From Anaerolineae bacterium (lineage in GTDB: Bacteria > Chloroflexota > Anaerolineae > Aggregatilineales > UBA3940), in contig JAFGOY010000077.1 of assembly GCA_016926255.1 (NCBI GenBank), positions 1-64,000 on the forward strand: DNA of 64,000 nucleotides, given 5' to 3'. A program made the position numbers and the translations under genes. This document shows positions 7,352-57,290 of this stretch, one piece after another. Positions within the stretch are counted from its first letter, which is position 1; each line of letters opens with the position of its first letter. The notes under the pieces were generated by a model. The model saw only the letters and a list, made by a program, of their open reading frames with translations, searched no databases and had not been told where the DNA came from.

Positions 7352-7855
7352 TCATTCATTGATATTCTGTGATGGTTTCATGATCCAATCTTGAACTTTC
7401 CATTTGATTATCTTCTGATACGTTCTGCCGGACACAATCACTCTAACTCTGATAGGTCTGACTGGCTTTCCATACGCCAGTCCTTCGCGTTCAATAGCCT
7501 CTTTGAGATATTCTCGGTCGATAAGAACAAGGCGTGATTCGCCATCTTCAAGTCGAACATTTCCCTCAAATGGGCGACCAAACTCTCTTCCCCAACCCTG
7601 ATCATTGTAAATCAAACTTGTCGCGTTGGTTATGATGAATATGCTCTCAACCACGACCGGGCGATGCCCACGATTCCTGATCCCAACATATAGAATTTCT
7701 CTTTCGTATCCCGTTATTCTTCCTTGTTTGATACTGATCTTTACACGCCGCCGATCTATAAAAATCTGGCGGATCGCCAGCATGGTAGACAATATCGCTC
7801 CCCAGACAGCCAGAATGTCCGTCAGCGTAAGGGTCAATGGTGGAAATTGGATCAT
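7352..7855 (-). CDS. AT-rich membrane-anchored protein of unknown function (distal of a pair)
   Basis: A 167-residue protein with one N-terminal membrane helix (about residues 10-30), a basic flank (DRRRVKISIK) and a beta-rich remainder containing ILYVGIRNRGHRPVVVES, which suggests an Ig-like or similar sandwich fold. Its ATG overlaps the stop of the preceding gene by four bases (ATGA), so the two are translationally coupled. Base composition is clearly more AT-rich than the flanking genes, which suggests separate acquisition. No family recognised. Confidence 0.6.
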   Translation of the reverse strand: MIQFPPLTLTLTDILAVWGAILSTMLAIRQIFIDRRRVKISIKQGRITGYEREILYVGIRNRGHRPVVVESIFIITNATSLIYNDQGWGREFGRPFEGNVRLEDGESRLVLIDREYLKEAIEREGLAYGKPVRPIRVRVIVSGRTYQKIIKWKVQDWIMKPSQNINE

Positions 7856-8415
7856 TTGTCGTTCCTTTTTATCGCTTCTTTAACTATCTTGTCTGGGGTA
7901 TTAAGCAAAGTCGAAACAAATCTCGCAGGCAATTTCGCAGTATACTTCTTTCCCTGAGCATCGATCACGAGAACCCTACTCCGAGCACTACGAGAATTGT
8001 TGTAGATAGTCTTTTTTAGACGTCTCTTTACCTTCTCTGTGTCCAACGGGAAAACAAGTTTTTGGCTATCAATGTCAAGAGTCTTTGGTAAGGACATGTA
8101 ACTCGCGGTTAAAGATATACAAATGCGCTTGAGGGGAAACTGATTTAATCTAAGCCTCAAGTCTTCGATCCTGATTGGTTGTCCGCCTTTGTACACGACG
8201 GTAATTTCTAAAATTGGTGCATGGCTGGAGACAATAAATTGGTGTCCATTGTTGTCAATTCGTTTGACAGAGTTGAGTGTTTTTGTAGACTGTTTTACCT
8301 TGATTCTCATACGCTTTGTGTGTCGGCGTACTTCGAAGTAACCCAAAGTGAAGGCAATAATAAATCCCAATATACCAAGCCACTCATTTGCTATTGGCAT
8401 TCCGAATATTTCCAT
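7852..8415 (-). CDS. AT-rich membrane-anchored protein of unknown function (proximal of a pair)
   Basis: A 187-residue protein with an N-terminal membrane helix (about residues 12-28), then a basic stretch (RRHTKRMRIKVK) and a beta-rich region in which ILEITVVYKGGQPIRIED resembles the corresponding region of its downstream partner. The two proteins thus share an architecture: anchor, basic linker, sandwich-like domain with an N/K-x-G-x-x-P motif. An extended -10 promoter lies upstream at 8478-8486. AT-rich compared with its neighbours. Function unknown. Confidence 0.6.
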   Translation of the reverse strand: MEIFGMPIANEWLGILGFIIAFTLGYFEVRRHTKRMRIKVKQSTKTLNSVKRIDNNGHQFIVSSHAPILEITVVYKGGQPIRIEDLRLRLNQFPLKRICISLTASYMSLPKTLDIDSQKLVFPLDTEKVKRRLKKTIYNNSRSARSRVLVIDAQGKKYTAKLPARFVSTLLNTPDKIVKEAIKRNDK

Positions 8416-52683: not shown

Positions 52684-53904
<1,221 letters not shown>

Positions 53905-53972: not shown

Positions 53973-55232
53973 ATGTCTAAATCTAAGTTCACTCCAGGTG
54001 GTAGACAGCTTCTTGCAGATGCACAGCTAGAAGCTACTCAGCGGAATCATAGAGAGATTACCTGCCTGCATCTTGTGAAAGCAATGTTGCAGCAAAAAAC
54101 GTCAATTGTGGAGGATGTTTTAAAAAGGTTCCCTGGATACGAGAAACTGCCCCAACGTATTGAAGTTGAACTCAAGAGGTTGGACTCTAGGCCTGACGAT
54201 GCAAAGATCGAACTGGCCCCGGAAACCAGACACTGCCTTGAAGAGTCAGTCAAATATGCACAAAAACTAAACCACCCGTCAATAGCCCCCATCCATTTAT
54301 GTATTGTACTGTTGCAAATCGAGGAAAGTTCGACATACCAGCTTTTGCACGATCTGGGCTTCACTGCTGATGGAGTGGAACAGCAGTACCTTTCCATTTT
54401 GGAATACAAAGAAAAAGCGCCGCGCCAGCACAGTGGAAACGGGCATGGCAGCAACAAAGAAAGGGAAAAAGCTAAGCATAAAAGCTGGCCGTTCCCAGTT
54501 TTACTAGTGTTCATGCTTGCCACTGGTACCCTAATTGCCATGCCTGACGAAGATATGGTTCAACGAGTTGGACTGTTTCTATTTGTTGTTGCTGGTTGGC
54601 TAGCTTCAATATCATTACATGAATTTGGACATGCCTATATCGCTGTGATCGGTGGCGATAAATCTGTTATTGGAAAGGGTTACCTGACGCTTAACCCTTT
54701 TAGATATACTCACCCCTTATATAGTATTGCCATGCCGCTCATTTTCCTCTTGCTAGGCGGTGTGGGGTTGCCTGGAGCTGCGGTCTACATTGACCAATCA
54801 AAAATAAGCACACGGAAGCTGCGTAGCCTGGTCTCGGCAGGTGGCCCGTTGGGAACACTTGGTGTGATAGTAACTCTGTTGCTCATTCTGGCATTACTTC
54901 GGCAGGGCTACTACCAGGGGCAAGTGAGTGGGGTTTTCTGGAGCGCTTTCAATATGCTCTTCTATCTTAATGTGATGGGCCTGATGCTGACCCTTTTTCC
55001 GATCCCGGGTTTTGATGGCTTTGGCATTCTGCACCCTTTCCTTCCTGAGAGATGGGTGAAATCAGTCTACCGGATCAATACAGCCTACTACTTTATCGGT
55101 GTCTATGTGCTCCTGTCTATTCCGACACTTAATCATATATTCTGGTCTTGGGTTGATGCTGGTGCGTCCCTTATTGGAGTTGACGTTTACGCAGCTAAAA
55201 CGGGATTTTATCTGTTTCAATTTTGGAGATGA
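53973..55232 (+). CDS. Clp N-domain fused to a site-2 (M50) membrane protease
   Basis: A 419-residue protein. Residues about 5-150 resemble the double Clp_N repeat of ClpA/B/C chaperones (FTPGGRQLLADAQLEATQRNHREITCLHLVKAML; second repeat LEESVKYAQKLNHPSIAPIHLCIVLL). A basic linker with GHGSNKEREKAKHK leads to a hydrophobic domain with the S2P metal site HEFGH (His216-His220) and the second-half GFDGFG with Asp348, about six helices in all. No ClpATPase part is present. Codon use is clearly less GC-rich than the neighbours on either side. Function unknown; a regulated intramembrane protease with a substrate- or adaptor-binding domain is the obvious inference. Confidence 0.78.
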   Translation: MSKSKFTPGGRQLLADAQLEATQRNHREITCLHLVKAMLQQKTSIVEDVLKRFPGYEKLPQRIEVELKRLDSRPDDAKIELAPETRHCLEESVKYAQKLNHPSIAPIHLCIVLLQIEESSTYQLLHDLGFTADGVEQQYLSILEYKEKAPRQHSGNGHGSNKEREKAKHKSWPFPVLLVFMLATGTLIAMPDEDMVQRVGLFLFVVAGWLASISLHEFGHAYIAVIGGDKSVIGKGYLTLNPFRYTHPLYSIAMPLIFLLLGGVGLPGAAVYIDQSKISTRKLRSLVSAGGPLGTLGVIVTLLLILALLRQGYYQGQVSGVFWSAFNMLFYLNVMGLMLTLFPIPGFDGFGILHPFLPERWVKSVYRINTAYYFIGVYVLLSIPTLNHIFWSWVDAGASLIGVDVYAAKTGFYLFQFWR

Positions 55233-55259: not shown

Positions 55260-56495
55260 GTGTATCCAATTAACCGCCAAGTAATACTACTCCTGATGAT
55301 TTATCTGATCATTGCTTTCCTGCTGGCCGCCTGCCGGGGAACGGTCGGTGCCGCCGAATCTACGCCAACCGCGCTGGCCGATCCGACCGACTCGGTCACT
55401 TCGACGGCAGCGCCTACCCTGCCGCCCCCCGACATCACAGAGACCCATTTGCTCTGGCAGTGGACGGATTCCGTACCGGCTGCGCTGGTCGCATCGGGCG
55501 ATCAGGTGGTGGTGCTGACCACCGATGGATCGGCGGTGTGGCTCGATGCCGAGACCGGCGAGCGGCTGGCCGAATACCGGCTGTGGTCGGGGATTATCGA
55601 AGGGGCAGTGACGGGCGAGGTCTATTCGGACGAAGAACGGGTGATCGTCACCGCGCATCAGAACCCGCTTTTGCCCGGTGATGGCTTTCAGTCCAGGGTG
55701 GTTGTGTTCGATGGCCTGGCTTCCGAAAGCTGGTCGCTGCCGGAGCTTTCCGATCAGCGGTACTATCTGATCGCGCCGACCGGGGACGAGTTGATCGCGG
55801 CGGCGTCTTCGCCCGATCCGGCCTTGCCGGGGTTGAGTGCATTTGATCTTGATTCGGGCGATCGGCTCTGGCAGATCGAAAACGGCGAAGCGTTGGATAT
55901 CCGTCAGCTTACCGCCGCCAACGAGAAGATGTTTGCTCTGTTCGATGTTGCCGAGGGCGGGCGCATCGATGCGCGGCTGGTGGATGGCACCAAGTGGTGG
56001 GAGTGGATCGACCCGTCGGCCCCACAGCCTGATCACCTGCTGGTGAGCGATACCGGCCTGTACGTGATGGGAGTCAGCCGGGTACAGGCATTCGATCCGG
56101 AGCGCGGCACACCGCGCTGGTGGGTCGACCTGGCGGTTTCACCCGAAGCGGGCTTCGCGGCGGCGGGCGATAATCTGCATCTCGTTCCGGCTCCGACGGC
56201 GGAAACCGAGTTTCGATCCGGCGTCGTTAGCCTTGATGCTTCGTCTGGAAACCTAACCTGGCATGCGCTGGGGGGGATGCTCGTCGAGGCAATAGTCGTC
56301 CAGGGCGACACGTTATGGGTACTGACTAAAGATATCGACCGGGGGACGGTTTCGCTGAGCGGGTTGGAGGCACTGACCGGGTTGGAGCGGGTTCGTCTGG
56401 AAGTAGAGGGTTCGCCCGATTCGTTGTATCGACTGGCCGCCGGGGATCGAAATGTCTACGTGCTGGGTGATTCGCTGTATGCATTCGGTTCCTGA
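55260..56495 (+). CDS. Lipoprotein with PQQ-like beta-propeller
   Basis: A 411-residue lipoprotein: signal peptide with lipobox LLAAC (Cys near 25), Thr-rich spacer, then repeated WLDAETGERLAEYRL, FDLDSGDRLWQI, FDPERGTPRWWVDL and LDASSGNLTWHAL segments typical of PQQ-like propeller blades. Probably a scaffold or ligand-binding protein outside the membrane. GTG at 55260 follows TGGGG; a later ATG (residue 13) is possible. Unlike the preceding protease it has the GC-rich codon use of the region. Confidence 0.75.
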   Translation: MYPINRQVILLLMIYLIIAFLLAACRGTVGAAESTPTALADPTDSVTSTAAPTLPPPDITETHLLWQWTDSVPAALVASGDQVVVLTTDGSAVWLDAETGERLAEYRLWSGIIEGAVTGEVYSDEERVIVTAHQNPLLPGDGFQSRVVVFDGLASESWSLPELSDQRYYLIAPTGDELIAAASSPDPALPGLSAFDLDSGDRLWQIENGEALDIRQLTAANEKMFALFDVAEGGRIDARLVDGTKWWEWIDPSAPQPDHLLVSDTGLYVMGVSRVQAFDPERGTPRWWVDLAVSPEAGFAAAGDNLHLVPAPTAETEFRSGVVSLDASSGNLTWHALGGMLVEAIVVQGDTLWVLTKDIDRGTVSLSGLEALTGLERVRLEVEGSPDSLYRLAAGDRNVYVLGDSLYAFGS

Positions 56496-56573: not shown

Positions 56574-57290
56574 ATGGATCGACTCGTTCAAACAACCCAG
56601 GAATTATTAAACTTCCGGCTCAACGCAGCCCAGCGCCACGCGTTCGAGGTCTATGCACGCGAACTGCTGGACTGGAACGCGCATACGAACCTTACGGCAA
56701 TTACCGATCCTGCCGACATCGAAATGCGCCATTTTGTCGATTCCCTCTCCTGCCTGAGCGTGATCAACCCCCGACAGGGAGCACTGCGGGTCATTGACGT
56801 AGGCACCGGGGCAGGGTTCCCCGGCATACCGATCAAGATCGCGTGCCCGGCAATCGACCTTGTGCTGGTCGAGGCAACTGTGAAAAAGGTCAGGTTTCTG
56901 GAACATATCGCCGAACAGTTGGGACTGGAACACGTTTCGATCATCCATGCGCGGGCCGAGTCGCTGGGACAGATTGCCGATCACCGCGAACAGTATGACT
57001 GGGTGCTTGCCCGCGCCGTCGCCGCGCTGCCGATCCTCGCTGAATACCTGCTGCCGCTGTGCCGGATCGGGGGGCACTGCCTGCCGCAAAAGGGGGAAAC
57101 GGCCCATCAGGAGGTCATCGAAGCGCAGCACGCGATCAACCTGCTAGGTGGAAAGGTGATACAGTTGACCCCTGTCGAGCTGCCCACAGTGGTCGATACC
57201 CGCTACCTGGTCGATATCGAGAAAGTTGCCAGTACCCCACCCAAATATCCGCGCCGCCCCGGCATGCCCTCCAAGCGCCCGCTGGGATGA
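56574..57290 (+). CDS. rsmG: 16S rRNA (guanine527-N7)-methyltransferase RsmG
   Basis: A 238-residue S-adenosylmethionine enzyme. GTGAGFPGIPIKIA (about residues 77-90) is the cofactor-binding motif and NLTAITDPADIEMRHFVDSL the conserved N-terminal signature; the C-terminal YPRRPGMPSKRPLG is the usual closing motif. It methylates G527 of 16S rRNA; loss gives low-level streptomycin resistance in other bacteria. Intact. Confidence 0.95.
   Translation: MDRLVQTTQELLNFRLNAAQRHAFEVYARELLDWNAHTNLTAITDPADIEMRHFVDSLSCLSVINPRQGALRVIDVGTGAGFPGIPIKIACPAIDLVLVEATVKKVRFLEHIAEQLGLEHVSIIHARAESLGQIADHREQYDWVLARAVAALPILAEYLLPLCRIGGHCLPQKGETAHQEVIEAQHAINLLGGKVIQLTPVELPTVVDTRYLVDIEKVASTPPKYPRRPGMPSKRPLG

Follow-up and report, generated by a model that had tools for sequence, protein, structure and literature searches.

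Site-2 proteases (S2Ps) cleave membrane segments, not soluble proteins. Their regulation by added domains has been described for RseP, which is controlled through PDZ domains, and for SpoIVFB, in part through a CBS domain (PMC6242693), and adaptor-based substrate selection for intramembrane proteases has been reported in two cases only (PMC9042235). In the Clp unfoldases, Clp_N is a docking domain for substrates and adaptors, and the phospho-arginine pocket residues of ClpC are E32 and E106 (PMC12583610). ATPase-free Clp_N proteins, among them mycobacterial ClpC2, also provide examples of Clp_N without an unfoldase; the roles described for ClpC2 are those of a transcription factor and of a sponge, and not of a membrane protease (PMC10030653).

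The window, i.e. the whole stretch of 64,000 nucleotides analysed here, carries a gene (contig C28 of the genome) in which a Clp_N head precedes an S2P core, located between coaBC and a PQQ-repeat gene, with the following features:

52687..53904, plus strand: coaBC, upstream neighbour (Pfam Flavoprotein and DFP)
53973..55232, plus strand: Clp_N-S2P fusion gene, 419 aa, ATG start (ORF list, Pfam, AlphaFold model)
54021..54164, plus strand: first Clp_N repeat (30 bits, above the curated cut-off)
54252..54401, plus strand: second Clp_N repeat (30.7 bits, above the curated cut-off)
54420..54485, plus strand: basic flexible linker, residues 150-171, ending KEREKAKHKS (pLDDT, Lys/Arg count)
54486..54542, plus strand: first predicted membrane helix, residues 172-190 (hydropathy; model helix 174-189)
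54618..54632, plus strand: HEFGH zinc-binding motif, residues 216-220 (H216, E217 and H220 invariant, 54/54)
54996..55019, plus strand: FPIPGFDG, residues 342-349, with the third zinc ligand D348 (invariant, 54/54)
55260..56495, plus strand: PQQ-repeat lipoprotein-like gene, downstream neighbour (Pfam PQQ_2)
56574-57290: rsmG, next after the PQQ gene (Pfam GidB)

The preferred reading, held at slightly better than even confidence, is that of an S2P-clan protease for which Clp_N selects substrates on the cytosolic side; copies linked to the suf operon in related genomes would most likely act in iron-sulfur supply or stress, and the window copy would be a divergent member of the family without the suf link.

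Clp_N matched the window protein twice in Pfam (E 7.3e-14, 52.1 bits against a cut-off of 20.7), the double repeat covering residues 4-149, and the double four-helix repeat fold of this domain (PF02861) was supported by both the Pfam and the fold matches. In the AlphaFold model, residues 4-142 were aligned across 134 residues with the N-domain of ClpB (Z 22.1, 1.2 A) and with those of ClpC and ClpA at about Z 17-20; for the double repeat shared with the Clp N-domains, the range was Z 16-22. Among the NCBIfam models, the N-terminal parts of Clp ATPases matched the window protein, in addition to a weak match to RseP. The AAA+ module of Clp/Hsp100 ATPases was absent from the 419-aa protein in both Pfam and NCBIfam searches, and thus, unlike in ClpC, ClpA and ClpB, the head is joined to a membrane protease without AAA+ modules. 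The initial annotation, which had proposed Clp_N joined to an S2P/M50 protease with HEFGH and GFDG motifs and without an ATPase, was borne out on each of these points. Elsewhere in the same genome, an ATPase-free fusion of YjeF_N (NAD(P)HX epimerase-type) with two Clp_N repeats was identified on contig C18 (L006 454-1647), as well as a 312-aa protein on contig C57 consisting of Clp_N repeats only, with at least three matches and without ATPase (L007 1420-2358).

Recognition of arginine phosphate by the head, also suggested initially, was not supported by the pocket, in which L32 and I107 of the window protein replace E32 and E106 of ClpC; none of the 28 fused sequences examined has the second glutamate. 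The Clp_N head could be regarded as a reader of phospho-arginine or N-degron tags by which proteins of the cytosol so marked are passed on to the protease. This would be consistent with the Clp_N fold and with E32 in the first pocket being retained in 19/28 fused proteins and in 10/10 of the suf clade. However, E32 lies within an EHLL motif that the ClpB-like copy of the window genome shares, and is therefore not diagnostic; moreover, S2Ps cut membrane segments and not soluble proteins. A search for an arginine kinase gave no match in the window genome, nor in the control genomes. A tag-reading head is regarded as very unlikely.

For the protease core, a single-sequence Pfam search returned Peptidase_M50 at residues 208-381 with 22.8 bits, which is below the cut-off of 27.2. 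The HMM search proposed in the initial annotation was positive for Clp_N in the window protein itself. M50 was matched at E <= 0.01 by all 54 aligned relatives, and Clp_N by 28, the number built into the 54-sequence alignment as fused. By sequence, the core profile matched the solved S2Ps MJ0392, RseP and SpoIVFB. H216, E217, H220 and D348 were invariant throughout the alignment, HEFGH being located within a model helix at 194-226, and most of the core-invariant residues were retained in the window protein. One exception was position 340, the Asn of the NLLPxPxLDG motif, which among the 54 aligned sequences was Thr in the window protein only.

The AlphaFold2 model of the whole protein, built with the 54-sequence alignment, had a mean pLDDT of 90.4 with residues 151-161 as the single floppy stretch (pLDDT <50), and the protease part folded alone reached 91.6. 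In VIA-align, the five best PDB chains for the isolated protease model were RasP (integrative model), E. coli RseP, MjS2P, Kangiella RseP and SpoIVFB, with Z from 10.2 to 8.0 and the next match at 5.9. Foldseek alone returned nothing significant for the isolated S2P model against the PDB (best 3b4r, E 0.16). Chance matches or mis-called domains were ruled out by the Pfam scores, the fold matches and the core profile. The window protein is most likely an intramembrane zinc protease of the S2P (M50) clan, as predicted from sequence.

With SpoIVFB and MjS2P (S2P subfamily 3), the protein shares the catalytic core fold, the zinc ligands and a predicted cytosolic accessory domain on the core; in these proteins the accessory domain is a C-terminal CBS, whereas in the window protein it is the N-terminal Clp_N. 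With RseP and RasP (subfamily 1), it has in common the HExxH and LDG-type motifs, the core fold and an added domain that would choose the substrate, but the PDZ domains of RseP are extracytoplasmic. Neither a PDZ domain nor a C-terminal CBS domain was found by Pfam scan in the window protein or its relatives. According to the positive-inside rule, basic residues mark the cytosolic side of a membrane. In the 28 fused proteins, Lys and Arg averaged 5.3 in the 25 residues preceding the first membrane helix, and 0.36 in the loop that joins helix 1 to helix 2, a distribution by which the Clp_N head would be placed in the cytosol.

A different role for a cytosolic head may be considered on the grounds that ClpC N-domains were the best-scoring target of the family Clp_N profile (76 bits), and that ClpC-like ATPases are encoded in the window genome. 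The head might be a copy of the N-domain of ClpC that is tethered to the membrane and captures ClpC, its adaptors or molecules that target it, in the manner of ATPase-free ClpC2, which soaks up cyclomarin (PMC10030653), with protease activity of secondary importance. A passive tether would have no need of zinc ligands, yet these are invariant in 54/54 sequences, and the protease core is widespread without Clp_N. We regard such a sponge-like function as unlikely, and retain substrate selection for an active protease as the preferred reading.

Scanning some 85,000 species genomes brought up 506 stretches encoding a relative, and the best 80 of the 506 were fetched. The layout of Clp_N repeats, linker and S2P was common to the window protein and to 20 full-length matches among 60 same-order relatives. 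A tree of 113 cores contained 46 with and 67 without Clp_N. All 46 fused members came from Chloroflexota, which was the only phylum with the fusion among the sequences gathered; one fused record was labelled Dormiibacterota, and its nearest neighbour (G139) was assigned to Chloroflexota. The 67 solo cores belonged to Actinomycetota, to further Chloroflexota, to Cyanobacteriota and to a small number of other groups. Membership of the window genome in Chloroflexota is indicated by named records that are identical to same-order relatives of it. Clp_N-S2P is not an isolated recent chimera but, as judged from its shared architecture, a conserved Chloroflexota family, and a chimera of one genome was ruled out by the same architecture across Chloroflexota relatives. 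The S2P tree as drawn requires five gains or losses, its well-supported branches are compatible with one gain, and the Clp_N tree is too weak to separate one fusion event from several. No split Clp_N gene, which would have given Rosetta-stone support, was present in the flanks of solo S2Ps.

In two cyanobacterial members, C-terminal TPR repeats were found in place of Clp_N (L070 6911-8317 and L075 1187-2440). As the core may carry no such module, Clp_N or TPR, the S2P core bears different protein-binding modules in different phyla. The open-access literature searched held no earlier description of the fusion, in agreement with the initial expectation, and within that literature the Clp_N-S2P family is apparently undescribed.

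A survey of genomes for the fusion and its neighbours, as the initial annotation had advised, found the fusion to be widespread in Chloroflexota, and in addition brought up sister genes in the suf operon that had not been foreseen. Clustering of the flanking genes placed one fusion clade at the end of this operon, and tblastn mapping of the suf-linked relatives gave the order sufC-sufB-sufD-sufS-sufU-[Clp_N-S2P]-Rieske on a single strand. The last gene codes for a Rieske [2Fe-2S] protein according to Pfam, and a Rieske ferredoxin was next to the fusion where examined. The likely start of the fusion lies about -25 to +16 bp relative to the sufU stop, overlaps included, and this proximity indicates one operon. 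Among the 21 same-order genomes that carry the complete fusion, 17 have it directly downstream of sufU (families f3 and f8; G010, G015, G017, G021, G023, G026, G031, G033, G036, G038, G040, G042, G046, G048, G050, G052 and G054). The four exceptions were the window genome, G008 (other contig), G001 (sufU not found) and G056 (30 kb away, with the Rieske gene adjacent). The suf arrangement was seen at none of the solo S2P loci mapped.

Whereas sufC-B-D-S-U and the Rieske ferredoxin flank the fusion in these relatives, the window copy is outside any suf operon. The suf operon of the window genome is located on a different contig (C34, L169) in the order sufC, sufB, sufD, a 276-aa ORF, sufS, sufU and Rieske, the last two being immediate neighbours. 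The 276-aa ORF, which interrupts the operon between sufD and sufS (L169 8538-9368), has a low GC content (43%) and no Pfam match.

In the other fused clades, the neighbouring genes encode a small membrane protein rich in glycine or a membrane protein with DUF2721, or are proC-like or cysS-like, these last two names having been assigned by eye. The link to suf is thus confined to one large clade. In one of the non-suf fused clades, the fusion is followed by a conserved glycine-rich membrane protein of 155-160 aa (L060 8309-8776, L071 8297-8761, L109 3172-3651, L123 8285-8749), which had no Pfam match (checked for L071) and is a possible partner or client.

From analogy with the described proteases and docking domains, we infer a docking role for the head, protease activity for the core and an iron-sulfur function for the suf-linked copies. 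Clp_N would dock a membrane client by its cytosolic tail, or through an adaptor that carries it, and present the membrane segment of the client for cleavage by the S2P without ATP, thereby taking the place of PDZ in RseP or CBS in SpoIVFB as substrate selector. The suf-linked copies of f3 and f8 may release a membrane-bound regulator, or clear a failed membrane client, in iron-sulfur supply or a stress response. The suf products are soluble by name, so that the operon offers no obvious membrane client, and nothing relevant on a membrane protease in a suf operon, or on a link between S2P and suf, was found in the open-access literature searched.

A bolder proposal, put forward only tentatively and with considerable doubt, is that the family constitutes an undescribed Chloroflexota branch of regulated intramembrane proteolysis in which an ATPase-free Clp head picks the clients or regulators of an S2P, one large clade serves iron-sulfur homeostasis from the suf operon, and the window copy, an offshoot that spread by horizontal transfer, has a client of its own. 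The known substrate selectors for intramembrane proteases are few (PDZ filters, one CBS domain, adaptors), and Clp_N, if the proposal is true, would be a further one and a case of a Clp recognition module working without the unfoldase. The suf link provides a testable function, since a membrane protease would then be expected to take part in the biogenesis of iron-sulfur clusters.

The window gene was less GC-rich than its flanks, as first reported, with 46.2% GC and 46.0% GC3 against 54.5-64.0% and 66-77%, respectively, in 11 nearby genes, and its codon score was -0.21 against +0.10 to +0.23 for nine neighbours, each left out in turn. In 31 relatives, the fused gene was within 5 GC points of its own flanks, and the low GC is therefore peculiar to the window copy and not a family trait. 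The recent acquisition suggested in the initial annotation fits this base composition; a donor lineage was not found among the relatives searched, and the nearest full-length sequences were only about 30-34% identical to the window protein over the whole length (SufU among genomes of the same family is 61-86% identical, for comparison). In the S2P core tree, the window protein is on a long branch, and in view of this and Thr340 its activity or specificity may have changed.

There was no convincing flanking repeat or target duplication at the window gene. In the family relatives fetched, coaBC did not lie beside the PQQ gene, so that these gave no empty site for comparison. No relative was confirmed in viral contigs, one weak Clp_N match (E 7e-5) came from an uncultured phage record, and plasmid matches concerned the S2P part only, starting at residue 159 or beyond. 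The simplest explanation is import from a lineage of lower GC that has not been sampled, which probably accounts for the origin of the window copy.

The foreign codon usage, the long branch, the loss of the near-invariant N340, a coaBC-to-PQQ junction without counterpart in the family relatives fetched and a search for a forward promoter that gave no match could also be explained by a decaying or near-neutral import, without a lasting role in its own genome whatever the sister genes do. The 419-codon frame is nevertheless unbroken, the set of zinc ligands is complete, most of the residues invariant in the core have been kept, and the predicted fold is confident, which makes a decaying copy fairly unlikely. 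Following the preferred reading of a substrate-selecting Clp_N head on a protease, the window copy represents a divergent family member that lies apart from the suf operon and was probably acquired by horizontal transfer, and its client may differ from that of the suf-linked sisters.

A second foreign-looking segment was observed at 7352-8415 of the window, as an island of 42% GC within sequence of about 60% GC. It adjoins a ComM/Mg-chelatase-like gene and contains two small ORFs of 167 and 187 aa on the minus strand, with an apparent N-terminal membrane helix.
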